64,000 nt of DNA from Congeria kusceri (lineage: Eukaryota; Mollusca; Bivalvia; Myida; Dreissenidae), in contig CM051029.1 of assembly GCA_027627225.1 (NCBI GenBank), positions 28,187,048 to 28,251,047 on the forward strand. The letters are read 5' to 3'. How positions within the stretch are numbered: position 1 is the stretch's first letter; each line of letters starts with the position of its first letter. This document shows, in pieces, positions 7,161 to 56,754 of this stretch. The position numbers were made by a program, and so were the translations under genes. The notes beneath the pieces are model-generated. The model searched no databases and was not told the DNA's origin. It saw only the letters and a list, made by a program, of their open reading frames with translations.

Positions 7161-7375
7161 TTCGTTTCAGGGCTTTATTCCTAAATCTTATACATGTACG
7201 TCAACAGCTTACTAAATGAGCGTGTTATGTTTCAGGGATTGATCCCTTCATTTTATACATGCACATAGAAACACGCATTGCTTATAAAAGAAGGTTGTTC
7301 CGTTTCTGGGCTTTATCCCTAAATCTAACACACGCAGAGTGTTAAATACGCTTGTTTCGTTTCAGAGCTCTTTTC
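7161..7375. repeat. Tandem repeat carrying 3' splice sites before the Wnt exon
   Basis: Four related units of about 57-73 bp each contain CGTTTCAGGGCTTTATTCC or a variant. The splice-site position falls at 7170, 7235, 7308 (mutated to CTG) and 7365. The last is the true acceptor of the Wnt exon; the first two keep an intact TTTCAG. The units include about 20 nt that correspond to the exon edge. Confidence 0.75.
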
Positions 7376-7598
7376 CGGAACACCGAGAAGACGTGGCCGA
7401 ACTCCAAGGAGTGCCGGAAGTCGAACGGTCTGACGGCGGACCAGATCAAGATCTGTCAACAAAACGTGGACCTCATGGGGACCGTGTCCATAGCGAGCGC
7501 CCAGGGGGTGGACTCCTGCCAGAAGCAGTTCTTCGACAGGCGCTGGAATTGCTCCACGATCGCGCAGGTGCCGCAACTCACCAAAGAGCTGAAGCGAG
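7366..7598 (+). CDS. Wnt11: Wnt exon: N-terminal Cys-rich part
   Basis: The acceptor is TTTCAG at 7365; the donor is GAG|GTAAGG at 7599. The frame opens on the third base of a codon and ends after the first. The peptide contains ECRKSNGLTADQIKICQQN and FFDRRWNCSTI, the usual start of the Wnt core. GC-rich codon use contrasts with the AT-rich surroundings. Both splice sites lie inside tandem repeats. Confidence 0.9.
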
Positions 7599-10500
7599 GT
7601 AAGGGGCCGCTAGGGGTCGCTAAGGTTTCCTTTCATGTGACGCGTAAGTGTCAGGACCTTGGTATTTGGGCGCGGTTAGTAGAGGTAAGGGGTCGCTAAG
7701 GGTTGTTAGAGTGTCGGGTTGGTGGGTTGGGGCCAAAAGGAGTCGTCCAAGGTGTCTGATTAGTAAGCGCGTGGGTGTCGGGGGGCTTTGCATTTGGGCG
7801 TGGTAGAAGAAAAGTGGTCGCAAGGGGTTTTGATTTGTTGGGTCCCTTGCTTTCGGACGGGGCATACATGGGTCGCTAGGGGGTTAGCTATGTTCTTCGT
7901 TTGATTAGGTGGGCGGGAGTGTCGAGCCCTTTGCTTTTGTGTTGGATAAGGGGTCTTTGGGGATCGGCTATGGTTTCTGGTTGATTGGGACGTGACTGCC
8001 GGGTCCATTGCTTAAAGGGTGCAGTGGGGCTGTAAGGAATCGATAGTGTTTCTGACTGGTTGGCGCGTATGTGCCGGGCCTGTTGCTTTCGCCGCGTAAG
8101 AAGCGATGAGTCCGAAGGTTTAAACTATAGGATGCAAGTAAATATTAAGTTATGTTTAAATTAGTGCTTGATTTACTATTAATACATTCTTAATACACAT
8201 TCAGCACGCAATGCATATTGTACGGCGATATATAATGGTATACAAATATTGTTTAAGAAATCTCTAACTACGCATGTAGGACCATATTTTTCGCAAATTA
8301 TATTTTTCACACACGTGTGTGGCCACAAAAGGAGTATGCGTGAGGATCACAGAAGCATACGACTTTATTGCACATCAAAAACTGGATGCGATCACAAACT
8401 TTACAGAAAATGTGAAGAGAATAAGACTGTGATACGTGAACAATGAGATCTCAGTGTTCACATCTGCAAAAAATGAGATCCCAATTTTCACAGATGTGAA
8501 CAATATTATTTGAGAAATATATGGTCCTACACTACGCATAACCGAATTTTTAATGTGTATGCTTTAAACATGTTATCGCCAATTACGTAGTATTTATGGT
8601 CCGTGTATAAGGTTTTACTAGGTGTGATACATTAAAAAATATATATAACCACTAGGTTTAATACTGTTTCTTAAGCTTTATTAGATTTTTGGATACTTCC
8701 GTAATACATTTACTAATCTAATACGAGCATAAAGCGGTGATGGTCCCTCATATTAAACGCACAAAAACTAACCGGCGCCTATCACAAACAAGAAACATTA
8801 AGATAGTTTATAGGGTCGTTTTAACTCGTCGACTCTTATATTAATCAAAATTCTTATTCCTGGGCCGTGTTTGATGTTGGTAGAATATTCACTTATTTAT
8901 CAAAATGGCTTTAGACAACCCGTCATAATGGGACATAACGCATTTGTACCGCAGTTCCCTTTACAACCGCGACGGTTTATTAACACGTCCGTAATCTTGA
9001 TCAGTTTGATGTATAGCGATAATGTCCGAATCCCCCACAAATATATGGTAATACAAAGTACGTGTTAAACATGTAAAAATCAAGTAATTTCTTCCTCCAA
9101 GAGCGCAGATACGGTCTCTTGGTTGAGGAATGTTTGGGAAGTATTTTCTCATTAATTTCAGCTTTTATTTCGTAGCATCGTTTACTAAAATGTATTTCCT
9201 CAATTCCAAATTTATTATTAATGTAACCTTTTGTAGTTTGACACTCAAATATAATTGAATAACAGTGTTACTAGTGTGAAATCTTGACTCCCCGTATTCT
9301 TACAAGTTGTGTAGTTAAGATAATTGCAATATCACTCAGAGTTGTCGTTCCTTTGTTTCTTCTTCCACCAATCATCGACAATTATCCCCCTTTCTACAGT
9401 TGGAACAGTCGAACACGGATGTAATGCCCGATACCCTATTGAGAACAATGAACCCCGGACACCCACCCCCTAACAAATTCTTTTCTATGAAACGTAGACT
9501 ACACCCCCTCCCCCCACAAAAATCCTAGAGGAAGCCATGACAGGTATAACAACATTTTCCACCGCTTGGATACCCACGCGATAAGTCGGTGTGCATACCC
9601 GTCGAAGCGTAGTAATTTACGACGCTGGGTGTTCGATTTCCTCCGCCTAACAAAGTAGTTCCCAGCAAGGCGCAGACGCGGTGGAGGCATCGCGTCGAAT
9701 AAAGCACCGAGCTTGGTCTAAGGTTACCGCTTAACACCCGTGATTTACCGCTCTTGTACCGAAATAGTGATAAATGTCGCACTGCATAACATCCGTTATT
9801 TAAACAGACAATCCCGATAGAAATTATTGCTGTCCAAAATAGTGCATATATTAACTATGAAATTACTGTAAACTTATAAATAAAATTAATAAATCATTTA
9901 AATACAATGAAATCGATTTGGGAATTTCTCGTTTTCGGCGTAATAAAATGTAGCAGTGAATGTTTATTGAGGAAAATGTATTTATCTCGACAAGTTGAAT
10001 ACGGGTGGCCCGTCGTTCTAGATTCAGACTATACAGTTCATATTAATATGCCAAGTCATTCTCATCACAATAACCGAGATGTCCTCACATGTTATGTTGA
10101 ATGCCCGATTTCTGTGACTCAGCAAATAGTTTTAAATCGGAACAATTATCGCACAGCTAGGGTCATCTTGGAAGGGGAGGGACTTTGCCGCCCGGGGGTG
10201 ATGAGTTCTTATTGTGTGTTGGGGCTGTGGTTGGAAAATTGAAATGTTTTCCCGAAAAAGAACCGTTTCTCTCTTTTTTAAACATTTTCACACAATTTAT
10301 GCCAGTTGTTGACATTCTGTTTAATTTATACCTACGTATCCGTTTGACCTTATATTAACAATCTTAATTCTTTTAACTCTAGTTATAAATTATTTAATAC
10401 GGTAATTTCGTTTTGTTTTGTGATTTTGAAAGGGCATGTCCATTTAACACAGTTTAAAGGAGCATGTCTTTGAAAATCATAATACAATACAGAATTGCTG

Positions 10501-22794: not shown

Positions 22795-23063
22795 GGGCCC
22801 ACATCCACAAAGCTTCTTAGTGAAAATTTCATTAAATTTATTAAAATCATAAAATTCCTTAAGTCTGGGGCTGGTTCATTTAAAGTTGATTTTGCATAAA
22901 AATTTAATTAAAAATTTAATTTGGTAAAGAATCAACAGATACTTATTATTTTAACATGTTTCAAAAAAAAATATTTTACAAGGACATTTTTATTTGAATT
23001 TTTTTGTACTTAAATGTGACTTAAGTTAAGATTTTCCTTAGGAGCTTTGTGGATAGGGCCCCA
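22795..23063. mobile_element. Fold-back MITE
   Basis: GGGCCCACATCCACAAAGCTTC at the left is answered by GGAGCTTTGTGGATAGGGCCCC at the right. A fragment with the same end (CCTTAGGAGTTTTGTGAATAC) occurs at about 52705, so the family is dispersed. Confidence 0.8.
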
Positions 23064-25376: not shown

Positions 25377-25514
25377 ATGGAAACAGACGTCGTGACGTCA
25401 ATACTTAACAAGAAGGAGGATTTCATCCGACGTCATTTAGTTCTGTCGTCATCAGTTATTGACGCCTTAAAACAAAATGGCGTAATAGGGCAGTTTACTC
25501 ACTCGCAGATGAAG
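25377..25514 (+). CDS. CARD gene exon 1
   Basis: ATG at 25377 and donor ATGAAG|GTATGC at 25515. It encodes 46 residues, the first helices of the CARD. The donor and following ~230 bp are duplicated in the intron. Confidence 0.8.
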
Positions 25515-26970
25515 GTATGCTATTAAACTTTTTGAACGCATTAACGTACTGAATTATAATTAAATAATAATTGGTTAACAGTCTGTTTAATTAAATGTAT
25601 GCCATGATTTTATTTCATTTATTCATTAATTGATTCATTTATTATTCATTCATTCATTCATTCAGAGATCGATCGATCGACAAAGAAAAATGTTTTATCA
25701 AAGGAAAATGAGAATTTCAAACAATAACGTAAAAAGTTACAGTTTATGAAGGTATGCTATTAAACTTTTTGAACGCGTTAACGTAATGAATTATAATTAA
25801 ATAATTATTGGTTAACAGTCTGTTTAATTAAATGTATGGATTGATTTTATTTTATTTATTCATTAATTGATTCATTCATTATTCATTCATTCATTAATTT
25901 AGACATCGATCGATCGACAAAGAAATTTGTTTTATCAAAGGAAAATGAGAATTTCAAACAATAACGTAAAAAGTTACATTCTATGTTCATTACCGGCTTC
26001 GATAATTTTTGTTTCATTAAGAAACCCTTTTGGCCAAATTTACATTTTCTAAAACGAGATCAAATTGTCATTTGCCTCATAGTAGAACAGAAACACGCGG
26101 ACTGAACATAGTCTAGATTCCTTTAAGATTTCTTGAAATATGTAAATATTAGTTGTTGGGTTTAATGCCTATGGTTGAGCATCTAACAACATATAAGTTT
26201 TGACCGTAGTTGTAACATAACGATATACCCCGTTTTGATTCCAGGCAAATGCAACCAACTCAGAGAAGCAGATGTCTCTTCTTCTTGTCTGCCTCAAGGC
26301 GCGTGGCGTCGCCGCCTTGCAGGGATTTCTGAAAGTTCTGCGCGCCACGTTTCACGGTTGGATAGCAGACGACATTTTAGACGCGCAAATCGACAAAGCC
26401 GGTTCTTTAGCCTCCGTCGAGAAAATTTCGGTCCGCGACAAAATCAGATACCTGAACGCAGTCGACATTAAGCCTCCGCCACCCGAACCGGAAGCGTTTC
26501 CGGTGACGCGTTTACACGCTTCGACCGAATATTCGCATCGGCATCAACCACGGCAGACGTTGTATCACCACCACAGAAACGGATGCGAGTGCCTCTCGGC
26601 AGAGGGCAACTCGAGGTACCGGAAAGACCAATCACGTGACGGCGGACGGTGTTCACCAATTACACAAATCCCCGAGAATCTTCGTTATCTGCAGAAGTCG
26701 TTCGAAAACGAGGCGGCGGCGACGCGCAAATCGCTGTCAATATTGAAACAAGAGGAAGTGACGATCAAGGCGCTCCTCCAGCAGAACCTGCGCGAGCAAC
26801 AGGAAGCGCTTATGAAGCAGGAGGCCCTGACGCAGATCAAGTCGCAGATTAAACAGATCAGTACTTCGGCCGCTTCCTTGTTGAAACAGGATCCAGACGA
26901 CCAAGTCTCCAGACGAAGGCTAAGCCTGCTTCAGAGGGTGCCGTGGGACGTCAAAGACAAATCTGACTAA
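25377..26970 (+). CDS. CARD-domain protein with C-terminal coiled coil
   Basis: A predicted cytoplasmic adaptor of 287 residues in two exons (25377-25514 and 26245-26970), joined in phase 0. Residues ~1-95 read as a caspase recruitment domain: NKKEDFIRRHLVLSSSVIDA, LKQNGVIGQFTHSQM, QMSLLLVCLKARGVAALQGF and LKVLRATFHGWIADDIL give the amphipathic helices and the usual LL..L...G...F..FL pattern. CARDs form homotypic complexes in apoptosis and innate immunity. A Pro-, His- and Arg-rich middle follows (~125-185). Residues ~190-265 are a Gln/Glu/Lys-rich coiled coil (LREQQEALMKQEALTQ). No caspase, kinase, NACHT or RING domain is visible. I do not recognise a vertebrate orthologue; BCL10/CARD9-like adaptors have a similar layout, but I claim no orthology. 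Confidence 0.75.
25509..25982. repeat. Tandem duplication that includes the exon 1 donor
   Basis: Two ~237-bp copies (from 25511 and from 25748) share GAAGGTATGCTATTAAACTT, AACGTAATGAATTATAAT and GATCGATCGACAAAG. The second copy repeats the last six exonic bases and the 5' splice site exactly, so there are two donors with the same core. Confidence 0.9.
26245..26970 (+). CDS. CARD gene exon 2
   Basis: Acceptor GATTCCAG at 26244, stop TAA at 26968-26970. It encodes 241 residues: the rest of the CARD, the Pro/His-rich linker and the coiled coil. Strong GC-rich codon use sets it apart from the flanks. Confidence 0.9.
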   Translation, partial: ANATNSEKQMSLLLVCLKARGVAALQGFLKVLRATFHGWIADDILDAQIDKAGSLASVEKISVRDKIRYLNAVDIKPPPPEPEAFPVTRLHASTEYSHRHQPRQTLYHHHRNGCECLSAEGNSRYRKDQSRDGGRCSPITQIPENLRYLQKSFENEAAATRKSLSILKQEEVTIKALLQQNLREQQEALMKQEALTQIKSQIKQISTSAASLLKQDPDDQVSRRRLSLLQRVPWDVKDKSD

Positions 26971-27331: not shown

Positions 27332-27337
27332 AATAAA
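27332..27337 (+). promoter_or_regulatory. Poly(A) signal of the CARD gene
   Basis: AATAAA in GTTGAATAAATTGTAAATG, 362 bp after the stop. Confidence 0.6.
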
Positions 27338-27415
27338 TTGTAAATGTGTTGTTTGATTCCAATGAATTTAAAGGTTTATAATAACGTAACAAATTTGATG
27401 TAGAGCATACAATAT

Positions 27416-33600: not shown

Positions 33601-36600
33601 TTGCTGATATCAGCATAGTGGTATGATAGAAGTGTTTTATACCATAGTCACCAATCACATCGCAACTTTCTTCGATGCCGATCCCAATAGGCAGTCTCTA
33701 GACGTCACGTGATGTCTGACATGCTTGGCATACTTGTCATTTCCAAATTTAGCGCCGTCGCAATGTGTCCACTCAGTGCAATCGTTCAGTGCAATAAGTA
33801 GCGTGCGTATAAATTACCACTAAATTTCAATATACTGCACGCTACCTACTGCACGATAAGCTTGCATATAAGGCTCCACCCACCAGTTACCGTTCTGATA
33901 TCACAGTTATTGAATACCGAAAAACAAATAAAACTGTCGGAAATATGATAGAATACCAGACACTTCTATAAGCATAATTTAGTTAACATGATCATACGCC
34001 ATTATGGCATGTTAAATCGAAACAAAAATACTAAGTGAATGTCATATTTTATAAACAGGTTTCGAAGCAAAAATCGATTTTCCAGAATATATCGGAACAT
34101 TTATGAACAAACACAGCAAACGTTTTAATCGACTCGATACAAAAGGACACTAGCAAGAAATCCTCTTCACTGATACTGACCCGGAAATTCCTGTGAAACC
34201 TGGGGGACTTCTCGTATCAACCGAACAGTCCTCTTCCTCAAATCCTTGCGCGCATGCGCACCGACCTTCCATGCAATTTCCGTTTCCGGAACAGTCACGT
34301 GGGCATGGCTTGTACTGCGGAGGCGGGGAGTATGTTCCGTTGTTGTAGTAGGAGCCGTTGGTCATGTGACTAAACTGACAGCCCTCCAGCATGACATTCA
34401 GCGAGGAGAGGGCCATTTCCGGTTGCCCAGTCAACTGAAAAGGCACGGCGCGTTACTCCATTGGTGAATCACTTTTTGTCATAAATGACCCATTATTTAT
34501 GTAATATACATAACTTTATATGTTGTTACTTACTTAGAATGTCACCTCCATTTTGATTGGCCGTTCGCATGTACGTTACATCATTGTAACATGCGAATAA
34601 TAGATATCCATAAATGGCAACGCTTACTAACGCTTCTGAAAAGGCGGAGTAGCAAAATAGCCAACCAAATGCCTGAAATAGCGTCCAATAAGAACATGCT
34701 CATTATTTTAGTGTTTCATTAATGTGTGCAGTCCAGCTTTTCATTGGGCCAACATGAAGATTATATTATGAATAACGATTATTCTTTTCAATGTGTAAAT
34801 TTAAATGAAATTTTTTACATGATGCTGGGAAGGGTAAATGATCAGAAATTAGCGATGCACTTAATTCTAATAATTTGTATGTATTAAATATGCACATTTG
34901 CGATACATTTTTTGACTTATTATTTATAAATTCTCAAAGCACTATACAAATGAATACAGTGTTTTAAACGGAAGAAAGGCAGTATGAGCATTCTGAAACT
35001 GCCCATTGCGCCTTAACAAAAACTAAAGTGAGAACTATAACTTCCGGTTATATTTTCAGCACGATGGAATGGCTCAGCCGATCGTTGAATTAGGCACAAT
35101 ATCGTTACAACTAACAAAATAAAATGTTATTAGAGAACACCTTAAAACGCACAACTTAATAGGTTCGTAAATGCTCGTCATTTTACAGGATAGTTCCGGA
35201 AGTAGCGAATATCGAAGCCCTACCTCCACATCCGTCACACACATGTCCATTAGGTCCTGAATTCCGAACTGGTATCGCTCATGAATGCACGTGCGCGCCG
35301 ATTCGAACCAGTTCAGTTTGTCGTAGCAGATCCGACTTGCGTCCGGCTTTGACTGGAATGGAACGGGTTCAGTGGAACCATTCCTTTGAGCTGAAAATAC
35401 ATGTATAACCGGAAGTTATTGTTTGGGCTTAACGTTTTGTTTTCTTGAATAAGTATACACATTTTAGATGTATTACTGGTAATTGCACGAACTATTATGC
35501 CTAGGAATGAAAAGGAATACCGAATTCGGTATCCGAATATTCGTATGCAGCATCGTGTATGCAGCAATTTTTTTCCATTCTATTGTTTTATTTAAACTGA
35601 GTTTGACACTTCAGTAGAGTAAAAACGAGTAACATTATAATACACAATAAAATAGTATTTAATATTTGTGAAATGGATATGTGGTCCGCCTTGCGGTTGG
35701 GAGGTCCTGAGTTCTATCCCCACTCGGGTAGCGTTTGAATGATCTTTTTCAAGTACTTCTGCGCCATGTACTGGTTATACCCAGAAAAGGGATTCGAAAG
35801 TATTTAAATAAGCCCCTGGATTTCGACACAATCGAGCTAAAAATTGGTTCAAACTTATATCTATCTGGCTAAGGAAATGACACATTCAAGTTTCCACGTT
35901 CAAAGAGGCATTGCAACAATATAGGTGAAGATCAACTTACGAAGTGGAAACACGTAGGGTTTCGGTGTGGCCAGTGTTATGAACATTGCCATCGTTGTCG
36001 TTGAAGGCGGTGGGGTGGTGGTATGTTTAGTGCTAACCACTCCTACAGTCGCTGCATGTGTTGGATTTGGTCTTGCTGTTGGCGCTGATGGTGCTGTTGT
36101 TGGCGCTTGCGTTGTTGCTGGCGATGGGTTTGACCGTCGGATTTCCACGCATCCTGGGCAGAGTTCCTACAATACCAAGTATCGACGTTTAGTATGACTT
36201 TGTAATGTGCGTATGGCTGTCTATTTTATGCCCGTCCATCTGTCTCTCTGTCCGTCCATCTGTCTGTTTCTCGGGGTGTCTGTCTATTCTGTCTGTCTGT
36301 CCGTCCCTTCTGTCTGTCTGTTTGTCCGTTCTGTCTGTCATTCCGGCCGGCCGGCTGTCTGTCTATCATTCACTCTCTGTATCCATATGTTTGTTTATCT
36401 CTCCGTCTGCCGCCTGTCTGTCTTTCTATCTGTTTATCCGACTGTACTCTTAATCTACTCACCTTGGTGTACGGCATTGAGAGCGTGGTAAACTAGCAAG
36501 ATTTCATGCTGTCGTTTCCTATATATAATAATGGGTGCGATCTCAAAGACGAAGGGGATCTTTGCTGCACATCTACTCACATTGGTGTGCGGTATCGAGG

Positions 36601-38712
36601 ACGGGGTTGTCTGGCACGACTCCGCGCTGTTGTAGCACACACAGTGGTTTTGGGGTTCCGGTTCGAGCTTCGTGAGGTCCTTCTCGAACAGGCTTTGGCC
36701 CTTCGGAATGCTTAATGCAGAAATGAAAGAAATGTGCTATCGACCATATTTTTCACAACTCATATTGTTCACATCTGTGAAAAATAGGATCTCATTCTTC
36801 ACAGGTGTGCAAATTAAGATCTTATTCTTCGCACATAACAGTCATATTATCCACGTTTTCTGTGACTTCTGTGATCGCATCTAGTTTTTGATATGCAATG
36901 AAATCACATTCTTCTGTGATACTCTCTCATACCCCGTTTTGGGCCAATTACATTCTTCACCATTTAAATGTGACAGATGATATCCTATTCTCCACAGGTG
37001 TATGAAAAATATGATTTGTGAAAAATATGATCCTACAGTGCTATAGGCAATTATATGGAAAACGAACATGTGTGATATGTTGCACACGTATGACGTATTT
37101 TAACGAGATGTATATGGTTTAGGAAATGCATGGTGTATTTCAACCTTTTATAATTATTTAGTTGTTTAGGAAAGAATGTTACCAACCTCAAGGCACATGC
37201 TATGCTCGAAAATATACTGAAATAAACTATGATGATTTTATTCATTCTACAATTTGAATAATCGAATCGTGTCCACACGAGAAGGTAGGAACAACTTAAA
37301 GATGTGTGTAATAATGACATAAATATTATATATATAAATAATCACCCACAACAAAATACTGATTTGGCAAAAAACACAAGAGCTGTCAGAGGATAGCGCG
37401 CTCGAATATTCGAAGTATTTCAGTTGGTACACATTTTGGAGAGAGGAAGGCGCATAAATTTGTTAAAATACAAAACTATTAAGTGAAGCCTTGTATAGTT
37501 AATACATTTTTGGAACAAAAACTTTAACCACAAAATATGTGTAAAAAGTGTGCATAACTCTGTCAAAACACAAAACTGAGTGTGGGTAATGGTACCCTGA
37601 TACTGGAGTTGATGACAAAGGTTAGTTTCAAGTGAATAACTTATGTAGTTTTGAGTTACAAAATTTGAATATAAGCTTTAACCAGAAAATCTACGTGAAA
37701 ACGGGGCATAACTCTGTCAAAATACAAAACAGAGTTATGGGTAATGTTGCCTCTGATACTAGAGTTGATGACAAAGGTTAGTTCCAAGTTTCAGGTGAAT
37801 AACTTACGTAGTTTTTAAGTAACCAAACTTTTGAATATAAACTTTTAACAGAAAATCTAAGTGAAAATGGGGCATCACTCTGTCAAAATACAAAATAGAG
37901 TTATTGGTAATGTTGCTCCTGATACTAGAGTTGATGACAAAGGTTAGTTCCAAGATTCAAGTGAAAAGCTTATGTAGTATTGAAGTTACAAAACTTTTGA
38001 ATATAAATTTTAACCAGAAAATCTATGTGAAAAAGGGGCATAACTCTGTCAAAATACAAAACATATTTATAGGGAATGTTGCCCCCCGCATACTGAAGTT
38101 GATGACAAAGGTATATTCCAAGTTCCAATTGAATAACGTATGTAGTTTTGAAGTATCCAGACTTTTGAATAAATACTTTAACCAATTCAGACGCGGACGC
38201 CGACGCAGAAGCCGGGGGTAGTAGGATAGCTTACCTATGCTTCGAATAGTCGAGCTAAAATCTGTATTTCAGGCAAACCAATCTTAAAACCTTAAAGTTT
38301 TTAGCGACGATAAAAAAACAACTCAATCTCGACCCTACCTGACGTTTTTGAGACCGTTGCCCGAAACACACAAATTTTGTGTTGGCCTTAAATTCCTGAG
38401 ATGTTGATCTTTTGTTTTATGTGACATTGTATTTCTCATGCATGTGCTTATTTGATGACATAACGACTCACCTCCAAGATTCGATGAACGCGTACGGGAA
38501 ACGTTCCATACGATGCCCTTGGCCATTTGGTGAAGTAAGATCGTTGTCGGGGTCACCGTCATATCTGCCACAGAGACCCTCTGTGTCCCTGAAGTTGACG
38601 TTAACAACGTAATGCAGTGCAGAAGATCACTATCGTCGTCGTTGTCGTCGTCGTCGTCCTCCTCCTTCTCCTCCTCCTCCTTCTCCTCCTCATCACAATC
38701 ATCATCACAATT

Positions 38713-38788
<76 letters not shown>

Positions 38789-41700
38789 CAATCATCATCA
38801 TCACCATTATCATCATCATCACAATCATCATCAGCATTATCATCATCATCATCCACCTCCTCCTCCTCAACATTATCATAATCATCATAATCAGCAGCAG
38901 CAGCGGCGGCGGCGACAGTGGCGGCATCAAAAGTTGCAGCAGTGTAAATATCATCATCATCAAAATCATCATTATCATCCGCATTATCATCTTCCTTGTG
39001 CAAATCCTCACCTTCATTATAATTCTGTATATTCTTTACAATCCTTATCATTAAACATCGGACACCACAACTGCTGTGTCCTGTCTAATACACGCATTTC
39101 CTGACCACTGTAACACATTTTTGTCTCTCTCTTTCTTTTTTTAACTATTATCGCTTCCACCACCCAATTGCTTGGGAAACATAACGTAAATCAATTGTTC
39201 TTTAAAAAGTTTATTAACACCATATAAACCACTAATTTAGAGTTCATGATTAATTTTACTTCTTAAACACTTTTATTATTTCAGTGACCAAATTATAAAT
39301 AAATGTCCAAAATATTTTATTTAATTATGAACAGGAGCTCAATAGAAAGAAAATTAAACCTAGTCCAGTTTGAGTAAGTCAATTATGGTGCCCTATTATA
39401 TACTACCAGTTGCATAAGTCATCCTAAATCTGAAGTACTGACCCAAAATCAATTAGTTCCAAAAGTTTGGGTCTACTTAACATTTTGTTATGTAATATTT
39501 TGGGTCTCTCAGTTACCTTAACATATTTCTTGGGTATTTTATGCAACATTTTGGGTCTCTCAAGTAGCTTTAACATATTTCTTGGGTATGTTGCGTAATA
39601 TTTTTGGTCACTCAAGTACCATTAACACATATTTCTTGGGTATGTTATGCAACATTTTGGGTCTCTCAAGTAGCTTGGTCACTGAGTGCAAGATGGATAA
39701 TCCTTAATTTAAAGTAAACATGGAAAGGAACAGTGTGGAGAGCGAATCTATGTACTTGCTGCTGTGTGGAGAGTGAATCTATGTACTGGCTGCTGTGTGG
39801 AGAGTGAATCTATGTACTTGCTGCTGTGTGGAGAGTGAATCTATGTACTGGCTGCTGTGTGGAGAGTGAATCTATGTACTGGCTGCTGTGTGGAGAGTGA
39901 ATCTATGCACTGGCTGCTGTGTGGAGAGTGAATCTATGCACTGGCTGCAGTGTGGAGAGTGAACCTATGCACTGGCTGCTGTGTGGAGAGTGAATCTATG
40001 CACTGGCTGCTGTGTGGAGAGTGAATCTATGTACTGGCTGCTGTGTGGAGAGTGAATCTATGCACTGGCTGCTGTGTGGAGAGTGAATCTATGCACTGGC
40101 TGCTGTGTGGAGAGTGAATCTATGCACTGGCTGCTGTGTGGAGAGTGAATCTATGCACTGGCTGCTGTGTGGAGAGTGAATCTATGTACTGGCTGCAGTG
40201 TGGAGAGTGAATCTATGTACTGGCTGCTGTGTGGAGAGTGAATCTATGTACTGGCTGCTGTGTGGAGAGTGAATCTATGTATTGGCTGCTGTGTGGAGAG
40301 TGAATCTATGTACTGGCTGCTGTGTGGAGAGTGAATCTATGTACTGGCTGCCGTGTCATCATTAAGCTTACTAATACTCTTATTAAATGCACTGCTGCAT
40401 CTTTCCTAGCCCCCTCTTTTACGTAAGTAAAATGTATAATACAAATATGTAAACATACACAGCCCTACATTCAAACCGCCACACCACATATATTTCTATG
40501 ACCTCACCGGTAGAAATGCCCGGGCACCTTGACGGACACGTCAATATGAGCAGCGAATGTAGATAGCTTCACGACAGCGCCGGACGGGAACTTGATCTGT
40601 AATAAATACAAGACGAAACTTGACAGAAGCAATCGGACGGAGCAGACCTCCGCCGTCGCGGCTCAGTCGTCCCATATCTCGTGAAACCAATGAATTATAC
40701 GAGCGGAAACAACCTGCGCTGCAATAAATACGAAACGAAACTAAAACGCACTCAGAGACCAGACCTCCGCCAAGGCGGCTCATTCGCTCTATATGTAGTT
40801 CAACTATTGAGTTATATACGAACGGAAACTACTTGTTCTGCAATAAATACGAGACAAAACTAAAACGCACTTGGAGAGCGTAGACCTCTGCCAAGGCGGC
40901 TAATTTGCTCATTATGTTGTTCAACTATTGAGTTAAATACAAAGCAACTATTGAGTTAAATAAAAACGGAAACTACTTGTTCAGCAATAAATACGAGACA
41001 AAACTAAAACGCACTCGGAGAGCGTAGACCTCTGCCAAGGCGGCTGATTCTCTCCATTTGTTTGTGCATTTAATGAATTATTCTGATGGAAACTACCTGC
41101 TTTGCAATAAATACGAAACGAAACTAGAAAGCACACGGAGAGCCAAGACCTCCGCCATGGAAGCTAATATTCTCCATTTGTTTGTGCATTTAATGAGTTA
41201 TATTGATGGAAGCTACCTGCGCTGCACTTAATACGAAACGAAACTAGAAAGCACTCGTAGCAGACCTCCGCTATGGCGGCTCAGTCGCATTATGTGTGGT
41301 GAAACTAATGAGTTATACGAACGGAAACAATCTACGCTGCAATAAATACAAAACGAAATTAGAAAACACACGGAGAGCGTAGACCTCCGCCATAGCAGCG
41401 AATATTCTCCATTTGTTCTGCAACTAATGAGTTGTATTGATGGAAACTGTCTGCTTTGCAATAATACGAAACGAAACTAGAAAGCACTCGTAGCAGACCT
41501 CCGCCATGGCGGTTCATTCGCTCTACATGTTGTGTAACTAATTAGTTATACGAACGGAAACTACCAGCTCTGCAATAAATGTAACTCTGTCTCGCTGAGT
41601 TACGGCCTTAAGGGGCCTCCTGTACTGTACAGTATGAGGGTCCCGTCGGTAATGTCACTTTATCAGTTATATCAGTTGACATTTTGTTGAAATATTTAGG

Positions 41701-44700: not shown

Positions 44701-45503
44701 AAGAACGGGTTTCCCACGACACGCCTCAATTTATAAAAACCAAATGGCCTTACTTGTTCTTCTGGTTGTCGAACGTAAAAATATGCGGGTCGCCAGATGA
44801 TACGCACATGCCTCCCTCGCTGCTTGGCGTCGTTTGCACCTGTATATGAAACGATTCTCGCTCGTTTACGTCCATCTATGTCATACGTAAAATGTTGTTT
44901 CTGATTCAAAGACTCATATATATATATATATAATGTTTGTATTATAATGTATCGATCTGTATTGAGTTGTGATCTTCTGTTATTTATCAACTATAAATAC
45001 TGCATAATCTTACTAAACTCTCTAGTGGGAAGTTATACATTATATCGTTATCATCATGACGTCCACGACGATGATGACGATGACGACGACTATAATGATA
45101 ATGCTGCTGCTGTTGCTGCTGCTGGTGATGATAATGATGACGATGAGGAACACAATGAAAACGATGATGATAATGACGACGGCGACGATGATGATGAGGA
45201 GGAAAACAATGCTGCTGCTGATGATGATAGTGATGATGATAGTAATGTATTAACTATGACTCTAAATGAACACCCTTGAGGCGTCATTATTTTAAGAAAT
45301 AAAATTAGAACATACTGGAAGTGGGTGAATCTGCAGACTGTGCCACTCTTTACCGGTACAGCTGCCAGTGTATGTGAACTCGATATTGGATACACCGCCG
45401 TTCTGAGGAGCGAAACTGGGGGTTGTTGAAACCTGGAAAAAACATACAAGTAGTAAGAACCACAACAACAACAATAATAAAATCAACAACAACAACAACA
45501 AAA

Positions 45504-45535
<32 letters not shown>

Positions 45536-51500: not shown

Positions 51501-54500
51501 ACAACAAAATTTATCAAAGCAATTCTTCAAACTGCCCTTCGTTCCCAGAACAAATGTCAAGTTCCACAATAAGAATCACCATGGCTAAAACTGGAAAGGT
51601 TTCGTGCTGTGATCTCAAATTGTAAAGTCAGCACTGTATATCATGCAAAGTTATAGGTCGAAGGTCGTGGTGTGGCAGACATGATCCATAAACGGAATCA
51701 TATCTTGCAGAGAGACGAAATTCCAACCAGCGCTGTTTTCTGTCATTTGATTTTACGACTCCGTCGTCGTGAGTTCGATACCCACGCTGGGTTTTCTTAT
51801 TCCTAGTATTTGTCTTTATTTTTTTTTTCAAAAGTCGTAAAATGAAGTACATGTAAATTATGCATACGTTATTTATTGGATACGCCTCTGTATTGATAAT
51901 TTCTTTAACATAAAAACTTAACAATTGCTGAAAGAGATCACTTTTTCGTTGCCATAGGTCTTTTAATTTTGTTTACATTGCAATTTCTTCAAGGTAGGAC
52001 CCTAGACCCTAGACGCTAAATATGCAATCAAACAGTAATACAGTTTTGTGATTTAAATGTTTTGTTTGTTTGATTGGATTTTTCGCCGTTTTTAACAGTA
52101 TTTCAGTCATATCACGGCGGTCAGTTAACCTACTCACACTTTTCATGGGCAAGCTTAGCCGATCTAAGCGGTTTACCAGTACTAAGTGCACATACTCATG
52201 CCAGCAACTGACAACTGCCCTACTTGAATCAGAGGTACGGGAGGTAACACATATTAAATGGCCGGGCTTGGGTTCGAACTCACGATCCCTGGATTGACAG
52301 TCTAGCGCTCTACCAACTGAGCTACCAGGATTTAAATGTAAGTAGTCTCAAAAGTGCATGTGTATGTAAAAACTATCATGTCAATGGATTTCTTCTCAGG
52401 GTTATTAAACGAGTTTATACGTTCGGATCCACTGCAAAATAGTCTGACAGGATCTCAATGGTCTAGAGTCCTTATTCACAAAACTGAAAACAAAGTGATA
52501 ACCTATGTACTTCATTCAATTCATAAAATGTCTTACGTTTGTGCCTGCTTCATGCAGAGTTCGTTTTACATTTAAATGTTTCACACTATAATATATTGCT
52601 TCGACATTTCATATTGTACCCCTTTGTTGACATTAGTCAGAGAGTTTAACATAGACAAGTTGATGTGAAATTTTCACTGCAGTACAACTTAAGTTAAAAT
52701 TGTCCTTAGGAGTTTTGTGAATACCGGCCTAAAAATAAAATACACATTATGTTTGACACGTGTGACTGACATTTGCAAAACATACTAGGAGAACGGTAAA
52801 TGCGACTACAAGCAAATATAATACATATATTACACATGACTCACATATCTACTAAACGCACCGATCAATTCAGTAGAAATAACAAACTAATTATATCAAT
52901 GACCTTAACAATTCTAAAGCCTCATGTCCTTCAGAAAGAATCAACCAAAATAAATAGTAACATTATTCTAGTATACACCGTATAACTGTGTACTTGATAC
53001 TGGTTCTGTTTTTCTGACAAATTATTCACATTTTCAAAAATAAAATGGACGACAAAAACCGAAATAACTATCGACCCTATGGTGCATTGGCAAATGATTC
53101 ACCTTAGTACTCAATCAAAGATTAAATCTTTCTTAGGAGATTAACACCTACTACAGCAGATGAAAATCAGACACGATTAAGAAAATGTTATTCATGTAGT
53201 GACATGTTTTTCTTTCTTCATGCTGCATTTGAAATAATTGGTACGAAAGCCTAAGCTGTATTTTCCATTTATTGATTGCTTACAGGCCATCGAAACATTA
53301 TGTAGAGTCGGGCACAAACGTTGCATTATAATGCAGTAACAGGTAAAATTTTAAATGTCATTTACAACTCGTATTACAACATTAATTTATATAGTTCTCA
53401 CGAGGACACAGAAATCGATGTCAGAAAATGCGAAAGTAATTCAGCAGTTCAGTTTTCATTGTTTCTTAATTGTATGCATATATCCATGCATCGCCCCGGT
53501 TCCGTGAACATAACATGGGTCTGTGTACGTTCGGATATTGCACTTTGGGAATTAATGTACTTTCAAATTGGTTCCCTGTAAAAATCTTTGGTTCCTTGCT
53601 AACACAATATTAATGGCAATTATGATAATAGTGAATATCTTGTAAAACTGCACTAACATCTATTAAAAGCTCAGTATTTTGCTCCCCACCCACTTTGAAG
53701 CGCCAAATGTGAAGAGAAAAAAGCAAACATTTTCAAGTGTTATGTCTTTGTATCTGTGTGTATGATGACATTTTACGCAGTGCACCAGATAATACACCGG
53801 TTTATGGGATTTTCGCCCTAGTGGCCATCGCCTCCAGACCACTTGTTAATTGGGTTACAGGAGATAAAGCAAGTTACGGAAGTCGCTCCGTTCCAAAAAC
53901 TACTTTTAAGTGCCAATTGGGAACAACCAGGTGTACGGCGACACCGCGTATTAACCAGTTAAGACCAGTTCGTAAGTAATGTTGTGGCGGGGATCGAAGC
54001 AGCTTAATGCAAAAGTTATAAATGTATTTGTATGAAATTTCCCGGGAAGGAAGGAAAAGGACCAATGAACAAATTTATTTACATAGATTCCCGTATCACC
54101 GTCATAAGGTAACCTACCACTGGTAACTTAAATTGTTAGGTGGAGTAACATATCTTGGCCCATATGTTTTCTCCGAGCACTTTCTAGTTATTTTGTTTTG
54201 AGTAACCTTCCTTTACAAAGCTCATATCCGGTGCCCGAGGTCTCGTTTCATATGCATTTCCGCTCCACGTTCAGGCAGAACGATAGCGAACACACCTGCC
54301 GACAATTGTAGTTGCTAGGTCATTAATGCCTTACTTATTTAAGCAATTAAAACCAACATACAATTTCACAGCTCGTATCCGATGTCGTAGTACTCATTTT
54401 ATATGCACTTCCTCTCCACGTTCAGGAAGAACGATCACAGCGAACACACCAGTGGGCCATAGTTGTTGCTATATTATTAATACCATATTTATATAGAAAT

Positions 54501-56754
54501 CTAAAACAAAATACCTATACACGGCGCATATCCGGTGTCGGAGTACGAGTTTCCGGTGCATTTCCGCTCCAAGTTCAGGCAGTACGCCAGTGAACACCCC
54601 TGTGGCGGTTGGAGATAGTAGGCGAAAAAGCTGCTGCAGTTCCTTACGCCAATCTCTCGCGTGTAAAAGCAACAGTCGATGCCGTATTTCCCGCACGCGT
54701 TCATGATCACCACTCCGTCAGCCTCCTGAAAATCACAGTTGAATTGTTATGAGTGAGTTGTTTTCAAGGTCTGCGCGTACGACAATTTGTGTTATGTTGC
54801 TGTTTTAACAATTCAAATGTTACGCTACATGTACACTTGCATTTAAGATACAATAAAACATAAACAATGATTATTGTATTCGAGAGATATATGAGTATAC
54901 TATTGTATTGTTCCTGTACGTCTTCATTTCATAATTTCTGAAGCAATCATTAACAAACATATAACATAGCCGTTGTAAATCACATACAAAGATCTTCTTA
55001 CAAATGTATACATAGTACTTACAATTGTAACAAAACACCAACAACAACATATTTTCAAAGTTGTTTTACTCACACTGGGCTGGCTTCCATTTATCCACAA
55101 GGGTATATGGGTCCCGCATTTGTAGTTATCCACGCATGTGTTGAACACCATCTCAGCATGGTTGAACCTATACCAACCTGCTTTCAGCCCCTGGTCGCAA
55201 CGTACATTCTCAGACCCTGTGTTGGTAACGCTTCGCCACGGTTCGTCCAGCACCGTGTATTGCTTACATGGGTCAATAGGATCTTCCGCTTTCACTGAAA
55301 AATATTAATTATTTTAAATTATCATGTTCTCTATTTACTTTCATTGATGACAAACATAAATAACGTTTGTTCTTAAATTACGTTTGATTAAAAAAAAGCG
55401 TAACAAAGTAGGTGTGTCAACAAGTTTATTATTTTCTCGCACAAGAACAATAGCAATTCAAAGGAAGTAGCGCTGATTCCTCCGATTGCGTCAACAGACG
55501 GATGGCCAATCGCCCTTTAAACAGTGTGTCAATAGAAATAACTTGGCATTATCGGAATATCAGGAACAATACCGGGCGCTAACACCGATGCAGGCAAACT
55601 GGAATCTTTCGGTATCAAGATTCTTTACCAAAACTGAAATACAAATGAACGTAAGAAACCAGAATCACCAATGCTCTCATGTTTTGTTTTACCAAACTTA
55701 CAGTATATGGATTTACCAAATTACATTTTTAGACTTTCTACTAAAGTAAAACATATTTTTTACAGCACAGCCACTATTGAAACCGTTAGTTGCAATTGTG
55801 GGTGCCAAACACGAGTTCAGAAACTTAATTAAAAAAGGTTGCTTCTACAAATAAAGCTCTAAAGAAGAAGCTAGTAATGAAGAGTGGTAGTTGTTATTGA
55901 AGTTTTGTGCATCAATTTCCCACTTCGACACACATCGACAAACTTCACTCGAACGTACGACATTATAATTCGAGGGTTGAATACCAGATGGTACCATTTG
56001 CTATTGATAACAATGGCAGTCGGTACCATCTGGTTTCAAACCCTCGATATTTACCAAAGCTGATAGGTGTACTCCAATGCAAGCTGTATTACTAAACCTA
56101 ATAACACAGTAAATAATTTGTCTCGCAGTAATGTTTCACTCTGAAATGCACCTCTGGCGTTGATTATTGGTGTGGTGAAGAAAACTCGCCTTAACTGCAT
56201 ACAAAAAGGCATGACAAATGTTAAGACGCGACCCCAATTGACTAGTTGCGACTTGTCAATCAAGGGTAGAGTTGACCAATTATGGGCTGACATTTCAGTG
56301 GTAAAAATAATAGCACATGGTTGCACAATCCAATCAATTTACTTCAGATCGTTGGAAAAAACAACCGTAGACGAACAGAAAGGCGGAGCGATCTATGTTT
56401 ATGCTACTCTTTAATTGTTTCAATGTTTCAAATAATTAACACTTTTACAGTTTTGCGATATCTTTGTAATATCTTTGTTAATTTTACTTTATGAATTCAA
56501 TCTTAAGTTTATGTGAATATTATAGTACATTTTGTAAACTGTATTACAAGACAAAATGGAACTAATAGGCTTCCGTAGGAAATATAGTAACGTGTGCAAC
56601 AAGTGCAAGAACAAACCTGAGTATAAAAATAGGAAAAATATAGGCGCATTAATACACTTATAGACTTAACGAAGTAAATGTGTGCAATCTATAAATATTT
56701 TTGTATATTCTTACCTGTAATAACCAGACCCGCAAAGAAAAGTATGGCCAACAT
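27472..56754 (-). CDS. Secreted VWD- and EGF-domain protein, VWDE family (21 exons)
   Basis: A complete gene for a secreted protein of 1050 residues. Exon lengths sum to 3153 nt and all phases agree. Order: signal peptide 1-13 (MLAILFFAGLVIT); D8C-like Cys module ~20-157, as in uromodulin (THIPLWINGSQPS, CCFYTREIGVRNCS, CSLAYC); Ig-like region ~158-306 (FKFTCIVPYPS, VTWFSDGN); VWD domain ~385-600 (SSGDPHIFTFDNQ, HYDNFHVGQYVLV, TEGLCGRYDGDPDND, IPKGQSLFE); Thr/Pro-rich, probably O-glycosylated linker ~605-676; EGF 776-802; Cys-rich tail with NICHVAGEVDG and CDCVDP-like clusters. The order fits the von Willebrand factor D and EGF domain-containing family, extracellular proteins of animals with a role in tissue repair reported in vertebrates. 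Function here is unknown. No transmembrane segment is visible. Introns hold many microsatellites and MITEs. Confidence 0.85.
28090..28370. repeat. Microsatellite (GAT)n/(GATGAT)n
   Basis: Trinucleotide tract in intron 20. It creates a His-rich frame that reads past the donor of exon 20; that extension is not coding. Confidence 0.9.
28420..28552 (-). CDS. VWD/EGF gene exon 20
   Basis: Acceptor CATCTCAG, donor ACAG|GTAAAT. It reads DDTCMIDNICHVAGEVDG, then GTCQPKINNTVWTQN, a C-terminal module that in VWDE-type proteins follows the EGF region. Confidence 0.9.
28600..28745. repeat. Three ~44-bp tandem units
   Basis: AAGTCCGATATAGTACGTATG and following sequence repeated three times. Confidence 0.85.
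29056..29192 (-). CDS. VWD/EGF gene exon 19
   Basis: Acceptor CGTACAG, donor GAG|GTGACT. It reads TGQALTGYMLSLTNNG and FNPACMACDSPEKCRIE, leading in phase 0 into exon 20. Confidence 0.9.
29695..29865. repeat. Short tandem repeat in intron 18
   Basis: ACTATATTTAACTTCAATC followed by TTTAAGTTTGACTTCATAC, in about three imperfect units. Confidence 0.7.
30039..30560. repeat. 52-bp tandem array of the exon 18 end and donor
   Basis: Nine extra units start at about 30039, 30089, 30150 and then every 52 bp to 30462; the tenth position is the true exon 18 end. Each carries the plus-strand block ACTTACGGAATCCTTTCGGC and AAGTGACACATCAC, i.e. ~35-40 nt of exon sequence plus a GTAAGT-type donor on the minus strand. 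Most copies keep the GT. Confidence 0.88.
30525..30627 (-). CDS. VWD/EGF gene exon 18
   Basis: Acceptor CATTTAG, donor ATCT|GTAAGT. It reads MDASGHRTFETETIQYPADF and LSVYHVMCHLPQGI. It starts in phase 0 and ends one base into a Phe codon. The donor is the first unit of a 52-bp array. Confidence 0.9.
30722..31012. mobile_element. Fold-back MITE
   Basis: Ends CCACAGTCTATATTATTTTT and AAAAATAATATAGACTGTGG are inverted repeats. The inside is built of many TAATTAGGAGATACTAAGTCC-like units in both orientations. Confidence 0.85.
31436..31783. mobile_element. MITE with ATGCACCTATCAATATTTT ends, copy 1
   Basis: ATGCACCTATCAATATTTTTT at the left and ACATTGATAGGTGCAT at the right are inverted. G-runs near the left end and C-runs near the right also pair. 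Confidence 0.75.
31961..32074. mobile_element. MITE with ATGCACCTATCAATATTTT ends, copy 2
   Basis: Shorter relative of 31436-31783 with the same inverted ends (AATGCACCTATCAATATTTTG and GATATTGAAAGGTGCAT). Confidence 0.75.
32133..32244 (-). CDS. VWD/EGF gene exon 17
   Basis: Acceptor CTCCTTTAG, donor ACT|GTAAGA. It reads GPVCKAASDADAECFRP, then LIGSNMKPGETACSVRGFT. The opening C must complete a codon with two bases from exon 16. Confidence 0.88.
32749..32866. repeat. Long near-perfect palindrome
   Basis: AACAGGTTACTGCCTGGTCT at one end, its complement at the other, with TGTGTAATATATCAGG also mirrored and AACGGCCGTT in the centre. It could form a ~50-bp stem. It lies inside the larger dispersed element at 32640-33960. 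Confidence 0.85.
33600..33925 (-). repeat. Dispersed repeat family, copy B
   Basis: Reverse-complement relative of 23690-23990. Flanking bases to about 32640 also resemble the far end of copy A (GAGATTAAATAATTAACACA), so this copy carries an internal ~900-bp segment that copy A lacks. Confidence 0.75.
34151..34434 (-). CDS. VWD/EGF gene exon 16 (EGF)
   Basis: Acceptor CCTTTTCAG. It carries the EGF module CPRDCSGNGNCMEGRC plus ACAQGFEEEDC (six Cys). The donor is uncertain: the only site that keeps the phase of exon 17 is TGCTA|GTGTCC at 34150, which is weak. It gives KRISCYGPVC across the junction. Confidence 0.75.
34535..34765. mobile_element. Fold-back family, partial copy
   Basis: CCATTTTGATTGGCCGTTCGC and TAATAGATATCCATAAATGG match the complete copy at 48735-49080. 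Confidence 0.7.
35224..35390 (-). CDS. VWD/EGF gene exon 15
   Basis: Acceptor TTTTCAG before CTCAAAGG, donor GAG|GTAGGG. It reads QRNGSTEPVPFQSKPDAS, then RICYDKLNWFESARTC and DLMDMCVTDVE. An inner AG at 35353 would break the phase. Confidence 0.88.
35690..35880 (+). mobile_element. SINE-like element
   Basis: GGTCCGCCTTGCGGTTGGGAGG and GAGTTCTATCCCCACTC look like a decayed tRNA-type head with a B box. ACTGGTTATACCCAGAAAAG recurs in the 13.0-kb and, inverted, 27.8-kb fragments. Confidence 0.55.
35941..36166 (-). CDS. VWD/EGF gene exon 14 (Thr/Pro linker)
   Basis: Acceptor ATTGTAG, donor CTTC|GTAAGT. After ELCPGCVEIRR comes a Thr/Pro/Ala-rich stretch (ATTQAPTTAPSAPTARP, HTTTPPPSTTTM), a mucin-like spacer. 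Confidence 0.9.
36205..36450. repeat. Pyrimidine-rich low-complexity tract (TGTCTGTC)n
   Basis: Tetranucleotide CTGT/CCGT repeats in intron 13. Confidence 0.85.
36455..36580. repeat. Decayed copy of the exon 13 end and its donor
   Basis: CTACTCACCTTGGTGTACGG at 36457 mirrors the real CTACTCACATTGGTGTGCGG at 36573, and similarity continues into the exon (…CTGTCGTTT against …CTGTTGTAG). The copy preserves a GTGAGT donor on the minus strand. Confidence 0.8.
36581..36710 (-). CDS. VWD/EGF gene exon 13
   Basis: Acceptor GCATTAAG, donor AAT|GTGAGT. It reads IPKGQSLFEKDLTKLEP, then NHCVCYNSAESCQTTPSS, the end of the VWD module. Confidence 0.88.
36735..37045. mobile_element. Fold-back MITE, relative of 8276-8531
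   Basis: GACCATATTTTTCACAACTC at the left is answered by GAAAAATATGATCCTACAG at the right, with TTCACATCTGTGAA and CACAGGTGT motifs inside. Confidence 0.7.
37470..38240. repeat. Tandem/dispersed repeat, ~155-bp unit
   Basis: Four to five units with CATAACTCTGTCAAAATAC, GAGTTGATGACAAAGGTTAG and CCAGAAAATCTACGTG. The array ends in GACGCGGACGCCGACGC and GAATAGTCGAGCTAAAA. Confidence 0.85.
38472..38588 (-). CDS. VWD/EGF gene exon 12
   Basis: Acceptor CAACTTCAG, donor AG|GTGAGT. It reads DTEGLCGRYDGDPDNDLTSP and RMERFPYAFIESW, the calcium-loop and GLCG region of a VWD domain. The phase fits exons 11 and 13. Confidence 0.9.
38630..38990. repeat. Microsatellite (ATC/TCC)n
   Basis: Long trinucleotide tract giving poly-Asp, poly-Ser, poly-Ile and poly-Met frames on both strands; these are not genes. 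Confidence 0.95.
39424..39680. repeat. ~58-bp tandem repeat
   Basis: ATTTTGGGTCTCTCAAGTAGC and ACATATTTCTTGGGTATGTT repeated about four times with variation. Confidence 0.8.
39733..40352. repeat. 31-bp minisatellite, ~20 copies
   Basis: Unit GTGTGGAGAGTGAATCTATG plus TACTGGCTGCT. Copies differ mainly at GTACT/GCACT and CTGCT/CTGCA, so homogenisation is recent. It lies in intron 11. Confidence 0.95.
40508..40596 (-). CDS. VWD/EGF gene exon 11
   Basis: Acceptor TATTACAG, donor CG|GTGAGG. It reads IKFPSGAVVKLSTFAAHID and VSVKVPGHFY, beta-strands of the VWD domain. The acceptor is the first unit of a long array (40596-41590). Confidence 0.9.
40584..41590. repeat. Tandem array of the exon 11 acceptor, ~120-bp unit
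   Basis: The true acceptor TGTAATAAATAC (plus strand) is followed by eight copies of CTGCAATAAATACGAAACG, at about 40721, 40840, 40984, 41104, 41225, 41339, 41458 and 41571. Each includes CAGACCTCCGCCATGGCGGC and ~12 bp resembling the exon edge. On the minus strand nearly every unit offers TATTTATTGCAG. Confidence 0.88.
41978..42350. repeat. 28-bp tandem repeat
   Basis: GGATCTAACAAACAAGGACA plus TTGCCAAT units, about 13 copies with variation. Confidence 0.88.
42383..42580 (-). CDS. VWD/EGF gene exon 10
   Basis: Acceptor AACATTCAG, donor GTG|GTATGA. It reads VETRTYAFGQTSLNCGVAV, REGNDVIILDMCDGQPGK and DIVRSKSGIEYV, the middle of the VWD domain. Confidence 0.92.
42712..43240. repeat. Microsatellite (ATC)n, ~0.5 kb
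   Basis: Long imperfect CATCAT/ATCATC tract in intron 9. Poly-Met, poly-Ile and poly-Ser frames are artefacts. Confidence 0.95.
43257..43323 (-). CDS. VWD/EGF gene exon 9
   Basis: Acceptor ATGTTTTCAG, donor AGA|GTATAC. It reads KHYDNFHVGQYVLVQRTTG then TFR. The GTATAC donor is chosen because it is the one that joins exon 10 in frame (TFR-VETRTYAFG). Confidence 0.82.
43324..44456. other. Intron 8 sequence, nothing recognised
   Basis: AT-rich, with no supported exon. The open frame at 43725-43949 has no family motif. Confidence 0.5.
44457..44730. mobile_element. Fold-back MITE, copy 2 of the 1543-1800 family
   Basis: GTCGTGTCGTGGAAAAATCGG at the left and CGGGTTTCCCACGACACGCC at the right are inverted; CAGCCTGTGCGGAGTGCGGA and relatives lie inside. 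Confidence 0.85.
44754..44839 (-). CDS. VWD/EGF gene exon 8
   Basis: Acceptor CATATACAG, donor AA|GTAAGG. It reads VQTTPSSEGGMCVSSGDPH then IFTFDNQKN; GDPH-F-TFD is the classic start of a VWD domain. Confidence 0.92.
45048..45255. repeat. Microsatellite (GAT/GCT)n
   Basis: ATGATGATG/GACGAC/GCTGCT tract in intron 7. Confidence 0.9.
45316..45432 (-). CDS. VWD/EGF gene exon 7
   Basis: Acceptor TTTTTTCCAG, donor CCA|GTATGT. It reads VSTTPSFAPQNGGVSNIEF, then SCTGKEWHSLQIHPLP. Confidence 0.9.
45455..45832. repeat. Microsatellite (ACT/ATT)n
   Basis: Long ACT/ATT/ACA tract in intron 6. The poly-Thr and poly-Leu frames are not genes. Confidence 0.92.
45892..45971 (-). CDS. VWD/EGF gene exon 6
   Basis: Acceptor TTTTCACAG, donor AAG|GTATAC. 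It reads NVSLSECRLTLRPKDWINS then TATTSMK. The first two bases complete a Gly codon. Confidence 0.85.
46030..46465. repeat. Dispersed repeat in two ~170-bp units
   Basis: AAGGTCAAAGTGAGGTTGGG and TAAGTATCCAAGTGTTGTAG recur at 46040-46160 and 46210-46330, followed by a GGACGGAC tract and ATGCATCCCGCATCAAGATG. Dispersed repeats with this layout are common in bivalves. Confidence 0.8.
46466..48440. other. Intron 5 sequence, nothing recognised
   Basis: No exon, RNA gene or element ends supported. Short open frames lack motifs. Confidence 0.5.
48441..48567 (-). CDS. VWD/EGF gene exon 5
   Basis: Acceptor TTTAAAAG, donor AATG|GTGAGC. It reads ISPEKVTLNSTWQEVTMTS, then CKRTSCDCKVEYGVSTDN. Confidence 0.88.
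48735..49080. mobile_element. Fold-back MITE in intron 4
   Basis: ATAACCTTCATTTTGATTGG and its complement CCAATCAAAATGTAGGTTAT mark the ends; TAGTAGATATCCATACATGG and AATTCTGAGAAGGCG are mirrored inside. Related to 34535-34765. Confidence 0.85.
49266..49585 (-). CDS. VWD/EGF gene exon 4 (Ig-like region)
   Basis: Acceptor TCATTTAG, donor AAG|GTACTT. It reads VGTDFKFTCIVPYPSLFL, VMNVTWFSDGNVIKSETL and NANISCTVTTQFADKHT: a Cys...Trp...Cys pattern as in Ig folds. Confidence 0.92.
49831..50270. mobile_element. Element with ~28-bp inverted ends and inner GTATACAGC palindromes
   Basis: TGTTAGACCGTATACAGCTCAC at the left matches the complement of the right end (GTGAGCGTTATACGGTCTAAC). AAGCTGTATACG and its complement occur many times inside. 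Confidence 0.85.
50480..51080. repeat. Three-unit dispersed repeat, ~190-bp unit
   Basis: Each unit has TCTGAGAAAAAACATTGAAGCGG or a variant, then TGGTAATATGCACACC and AAAGTTTCGTTGAATTCC. It ends in a GGACGGACGGGCGG tract like the 46-kb repeat. Confidence 0.75.
51081..52049. other. Intron 3 sequence, nothing recognised
   Basis: No exon supported. A fragment CCGTCGTCGTGAGTTCGATACCC near 51760 resembles a tRNA/SINE B box. Confidence 0.45.
52050..52339 (-). mobile_element. tRNA-derived SINE with 11-bp target duplication
   Basis: On the minus strand it starts CCTGGTAGCTCAGTTGGTAG (A box), then GTGAGTTCGAACCC (B box) after a GTC anticodon-like loop. A ~200-bp body follows with an AAACAAACAAAAC tail. 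Identical GATTTAAATGT flanks (52050-52060 and 52329-52339) are the target-site duplication. Confidence 0.9.
52340..54211. other. Intron 3 sequence, nothing recognised
   Basis: No exon supported. A MITE end fragment lies at about 52690-52730. Confidence 0.45.
54212..54514. repeat. Two decayed copies of the exon 3 end
   Basis: GCTCATATCCGGTGCCCGAG...CATTTCCGCTCCACGTTCAG at 54219 and GCTCGTATCCGATGTCG...CCTCTCCACGTTCAGGAAG at 54371 match the last ~100 nt of exon 3 (GCGCATATCCGGTGTCGGAG...CATTTCCGCTCCAAGTTCAG). Period is ~155 bp. The donor is lost in both copies. Confidence 0.88.
54515..54725 (-). CDS. VWD/EGF gene exon 3 (D8C second half)
   Basis: Acceptor TTTTCAGGAGG-type at 54726, donor ATAG|GTATTT. 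It reads EADGVVIMNACGKYGIDCC, FYTREIGVRNCSSFFAYYL and QGCSLAYCLNLERKC. Confidence 0.92.
55074..55294 (-). CDS. VWD/EGF gene exon 2 (D8C first half)
   Basis: Acceptor TTTTTCAG, donor AGT|GTGAGT. It reads KAEDPIDPCKQYTVLDEPW, GSENVRCDQGLKAGWYRF and CGTHIPLWINGSQPS; the WINGSQPS-EADGVV junction is typical of D8C modules. Confidence 0.93.
55295..56714. other. Intron 1, with a short palindrome
   Basis: Nothing coding recognised. A 76-bp hairpin at 55971-56046 (CGAGGGTTGAATACCAGATG and its complement) is the only structure. Confidence 0.6.
55971..56046. repeat. Short palindrome
   Basis: CGAGGGTTGAATACCAGATGG pairs with CCATCTGGTTTCAAACCCTCG. It may be the remnant of a small fold-back element. Confidence 0.8.
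56715..56754 (-). CDS. VWD/EGF gene exon 1 (signal peptide)
   Basis: ATG at 56754, donor ACAG|GTAAGA. It encodes MLAILFFAGLVIT, a hydrophobic signal peptide. The phase joins exon 2 through a Val codon. TTAG just upstream (CTAACGTATAATG) is compatible with a short 5' UTR. Confidence 0.85.

Follow-up and report, generated by a model that had tools for sequence, protein, structure and literature searches.

Mirage-type repeats at splice junctions of a 1.55-Gb genome, probably produced by ordinary tandem duplication

Minisatellites that span intron-exon boundaries have been described in amphioxus under the name of mirages. According to the amphioxus report they do not disturb splicing, they are unstable in length, and PGBD5 and TnC are further genes that carry them (PMC3902484). 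A preliminary description of the locus treated here held that splice junctions repeated into the adjoining intron belong to no described class, which was wrong, since mirages are such a class. No mirage report from outside amphioxus was recognised among the papers listed by one open library; the "mirage" of a spider genome paper is the name of a transposon. Two related phenomena are on record. In human genes that lie in segmental duplications, tandem repeats occur at exon-intron boundaries (PMC2812944) and are reported to change transcripts and form novel introns, whereas no change of mRNA is seen in the present cases, which are known from sequence only. Intron gain by tandem duplication (PMC4974935), as reported, has in common with the present cases that the duplication takes in exon bases and splice signals, but in our rebuilt gene models all copies lie within an existing intron.

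The window, that is the whole stretch of 64,000 nt analysed, comes from a genome of 1.55 Gb. Three animal genes in it bear the seven junctions named in the preliminary description:

7366-7598, 10617-10888, 20035-20333 and 20656-20830, plus strand: Wnt gene, four exons rebuilt (Pfam wnt, 2.6e-108)
25369-25514 and 26245-26970, plus strand: CARD gene, two exons rebuilt
55294 to 27472, minus strand: VWD/EGF gene, 18 coding exons, with D8C, VWD and EGF domains

The CARD gene scores 23.3 bits, slightly below the Pfam cut-off of 23.9 (E 6.4e-5). The 18 coding exons of the VWD/EGF gene join through exon-proximal splice sites into a single open frame of 900 amino acids with a terminal stop. In this gene a start of exon 14 at 35390 and an end of exon 15 at 34200 broke the frame and were replaced by 35352 and 34181, a candidate VWD-domain exon near 41982 did not fit the frame while 40596-40508 does, and exon 17 was later shifted to 29181. 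The models begin at 7366 (Wnt) and 55294 (VWD/EGF), exons further upstream not having been located. Exons are numbered as in the preliminary description, where exons 3, 11, 13 and 18 are V3, V9, V11 and V16 of the rebuilt gene. A tRNA scan of the whole window found none. In the last long Wnt intron, two long overlapping frames (15638-17591) are flanked by two similarly oriented stretches with identical reading frames (14469-14780 and 18240-18551), which lie about 3.8 kb from each other; the arrangement looks like a mobile element. There is also a direct repeat whose copies, about 2.7 kb apart (107-780 and 2797-3469), share a 20-bp array and a short reading frame that is identical in both.

For each of the 45 window junctions in the final gene models, 40 exon and 60 intron bases were aligned to the next 600 intron bases, with 300 dinucleotide shuffles of the 600-base target as the control for chance. 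An alignment that reaches the junction with a score of at least 40 was obtained at six junctions, and at each of them the score was matched by 0/300 shuffles: the CARD donor (120), exon 3 donor (79), exon 11 acceptor (68), Wnt acceptor (52), exon 13 donor (50) and Wnt donor (40). Two further scores of at least 40 fall entirely within the intron (V7b donor, 44; V8 donor, 40). The observation of junction repeats is thus partly confirmed. Six of the seven junctions do adjoin a repeat beyond chance, and the seventh, the exon 18 donor, adjoins a microsatellite only. The further statement that the repeated block always includes exonic bases is clearly true of four (the donors of CARD, exon 3 and exon 13, and the acceptor of exon 11), marginal for the Wnt acceptor and donor, and not true of exon 18, where the repeat does not span the edge.

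The highest-scoring case is the CARD donor (25514/25515), at which a block of 237 bp is duplicated:

25509..25748, plus strand: copy 1, in which the donor at 25515 follows the final 6 exon bases
25746..25985, plus strand: copy 2, whose decoy donor at 25752 is identical to the donor of copy 1

The copies are 93.75% identical, by which the duplication would be judged young. The 3-base ATG common to its breakpoints is weak support for the duplication mechanism proposed below.

Two donors of the VWD/EGF gene are duplicated together with a longer piece of exon:

54397..54605, minus strand: end of exon 3, founder-like copy with the donor at 54514 (exon part 54515-54605)
54210..54455, minus strand: two decayed copies of this end within the intron, lacking intact donors
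36571..36619, minus strand: block at the exon 13 donor, with about 39 exonic and 10 intronic bases
36453..36501, minus strand: further copy of that block, within the intron, with a decoy donor at 36462

At the exon 3 donor (54515/54514) the two extra copies include about 91 exon bases in a wider alignment. They have lost their donors and retain 62-67% identity across the aligned unit, which marks them as old on the evidence of their divergence. The exon 13 donor (36581/36580) has one extra copy, 118 bp further on, in which 27 of 40 exon bases are identical in register (0/5000 shuffles); the likeness weakens beyond about 50 bases round the donor, to 50% across 120 bases.

The decoys could be alternative splice sites maintained by selection, and several are strong: the CARD decoy has the score of the real donor (9.8), as does one in a Wnt copy (11.3), and the exon 13 decoy outscores its real donor (10.7 versus 7.9). 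The exon 13 decoy moreover keeps phase with a further acceptor, at 35390, the alternative to 35352, and the longer frame is open too. However, the 118 bases that it would add are without coding signal (-0.14 versus 0.47 per codon), and since the frame through the exon-proximal donor is open as well, the decoy is probably silent. With the exon 3 copies devoid of donors, and a 47-base unit at a myosin acceptor (below) that shifts the frame, selection for alternative sites appears highly improbable as an account of these structures.

A different origin has to be weighed for the repeats at exons 11 and 18:

40583..41570, minus strand: array at the exon 11 acceptor, in units of about 119 bp, with a core that is a dispersed genomic repeat
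28142..28406, minus strand: ATC microsatellite 3' of the exon 18 donor

The apparent junction repeats might be dispersed satellites or transposon-derived arrays that adjoin exons and resemble splice regions through low complexity. This is true of the exon 18 donor (28420/28419), rejected here as a junction duplication: the ATC microsatellite starts at about +10 and does not span the edge, and 8/300 shuffles reach its score. It is probably also true of most of the exon 11 array. About eight units lie at the exon 11 acceptor (40597/40596), with 7-14 exon bases (p 0.0026), a weaker case than the other three exon-bearing junctions. In a whole-genome search a core of about 80 bp from this array (40597-41580) was recovered at no fewer than 39 other, unrelated places (40 of 73 candidates scored), as pieces of 57-103 bases with 75-85% identity. 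In the units where the acceptor-like site was placed, these pieces end at least 14 bases ahead of it, and thus the dispersed core excludes the splice site. With 59-62% identity to the inner copies, the copy at the real acceptor is less like them than they are like one another (67-85%); these ranges omit the outermost unit (40-48% to all others). Because its core is shared with the 39 other places, the exon 11 array is probably not an amplified junction. As a general account the dispersed origin is nevertheless very unlikely: the exon bases shared by the copies at CARD, exon 3 and exon 13 and in the myosin array go well past a splice consensus, and for the three window donors this origin is refuted. 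Elsewhere in the window a 166-bp unit is present in about four copies (37519-38184); the exon 12 donor shows a weak likeness to part of this array (score 32, 2/300 shuffles), which is unproven.

The Wnt gene has repeats at two edges:

7110..7365, plus strand: Wnt acceptor repeat, with acceptor-like sites ending at 7170, 7235 and 7308 (TTTCTG), ahead of the real acceptor, which ends at 7365
7596..8121, plus strand: Wnt donor repeat, degenerate copies across the start of the intron

The alignment at the acceptor (7365/7366; score 52, 0/300 shuffles) ends exactly at the junction, and in-register similarity to the exon is marginal (p 0.026). At the donor (7598/7599; score 40, 0/300 shuffles) the array is degenerate and 3 exon bases are aligned (exon part, p 0.052). 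The full-strength Wnt decoy donor is at 7685.

Similar structures recur elsewhere in the genome. A search with Myosin_head found at least 82 matching exons, 65 out of 268 candidates having been scored, and 28 loci holding 48 of the matches were analysed. Splice sites were placed by a matrix trained on the window, not by RNA, and 65 of the 96 candidate junctions were tested, the other 31 being excluded because their splice site was weak or distant or their flank was short. A spanning repeat was found at three, two of them clear (L026 and L049) and one weak (L024). The first is a textbook acceptor mirage:

L026:507-817 (G000:C6:47950480-47950790): array of 311 bases, closed by the acceptor of a myosin exon

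This array consists of a 47-bp unit in 6.6 copies with 94% matches. Seven TTTCAG sites end at 512, 559, 606, 653, 700, 747 and 794; the site at 794 is the real acceptor, and nearly all units carry the acceptor plus about 20 exon bases. After four of the six decoys the sequence differs at 1 of the first 23 exon bases, after another it is a near copy, and after the outermost it has diverged. The exon reads ISQKYHSRDPSIPLPPHIYGIAESSYQAL. Since the repeated bases are coding and recognisably myosin, the junction itself would be the founder of the array. The array is probably young and likely to be polymorphic. At L049 a donor with 34 exon bases has one copy about 138 bases downstream.

In several respects these structures resemble the amphioxus mirages. 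The unit covers both the exon edge and the splice site there at the CARD, exon 3 and exon 13 donors and at the L026 acceptor, and more weakly at the exon 11 acceptor; it does not do so at exon 18, and spanning is unproven at both Wnt edges. As in mirages, both kinds of boundary are affected in unrelated genes (CARD and myosin L049 have donor cases, myosin L026 an acceptor case, and VWD/EGF both), and decoy AG or GT sites are present in many copies. Units measure tens to about 160 bp in mirages and 47 to 237 here. Unlike the amphioxus examples, those described here are from another genome, several of their copies are old and degenerate, and they are known from the sequence of one assembly. What may be new is the occurrence of mirages in this 1.55-Gb genome, together with a measured absence of junction preference in two samples.

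That absence was found by the comparison that the preliminary description had itself named as capable of refuting its own view, carried out at the scale of a sample. Tandem arrays are abundant in the window (89 TRF rows, some overlapping). Spanning repeats with a score of at least 40 were found at 5/42 window junctions, against 5.3 expected from positions of the same introns with microsatellites masked and 9.7 unmasked; three acceptors with no modelled upstream exon are omitted from this count, and its models predate the shift of exon 17. With the early gene models the corresponding numbers at score 40 are 6/45 and 8.9 expected, and with the final models four block and range settings at three thresholds gave 12 of 12 results at or below expectation (for example 6/45 versus 8.5). 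At random positions of the genome, spanning tandem copies have a background frequency of 9.0% (95% CI 4.2-15.7%; 4000 positions in twenty 10-kb regions on nine contigs). The myosin-head junctions show a spanning repeat at this score in 3/65 versus 8.4 expected, the expectation being 12.9% of 1683 intron positions at the same loci with microsatellites left unmasked. The total is 110 junctions only, and 45 of them are from a window picked for this feature.

Junctions could still be hotspots at which R-loops, nucleosome edges or repeated GT and AG motifs start duplications, so that introns grow from their ends. In favour of this, the L026 unit begins within coding bases, by which the amplified piece would be the junction itself, and at CARD, exon 3 and exon 13 the exact edge is duplicated. 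Neither the window nor the myosin sample, however, shows an excess at junctions, and the core of the exon 11 array is dispersed; we regard hotspots as very unlikely. The slippage-prone site at junctions that had been suggested earlier is not borne out, spanning repeats being no commoner there than at other intron positions. With masking, the window count matches expectation, whereas constraint on exon edges should have made it lower, and a mild bias may thus be hidden by selection.

The earlier interpretation is therefore partly supported, and the mirage-type structures are probably ordinary tandem duplications that chanced to straddle exon-intron edges in a tandem-repeat-rich genome. This reading is supported by the repeats themselves, by the exon bases in four of the seven, by the frame of 900 amino acids that uses exon-proximal sites, by the recurrence in myosin genes and by the lack of excess over intron positions. 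A block of tens to hundreds of bases would be duplicated in place by slippage, unequal exchange or microhomology-mediated repair. Where the block straddles a donor, the exon-adjacent copy would retain a working donor, and the extra copy, with its piece of exon and its decoy donor, would end inside the intron; a straddled acceptor would give the mirror image. Exon edges would tolerate the duplication since the splice site nearest the exon is left intact. As the mRNA need not change, the duplications would be free to drift, grow and decay as intronic minisatellites do. We infer this mechanism, the near-neutrality of the duplications and the rare use of decoys.

A bolder proposal is that the lineage continually duplicates junctions into introns, at several per cent of junctions, and so keeps a standing supply of decoys for alternative exons and new introns, with the exon 13 decoy and the acceptor at 35390 in use; this we consider unlikely. 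If the genome is not that of amphioxus, as its 1.55 Gb suggests, the amphioxus genome being about a third as large, junction duplications would not be a speciality of amphioxus but the output of a genome rich in tandem duplications, at a few per cent of its junctions. Such genomes would offer many natural duplicated splice sites, on which the spliceosome's choice of the right copy and the origin of new introns and exons may be tested.
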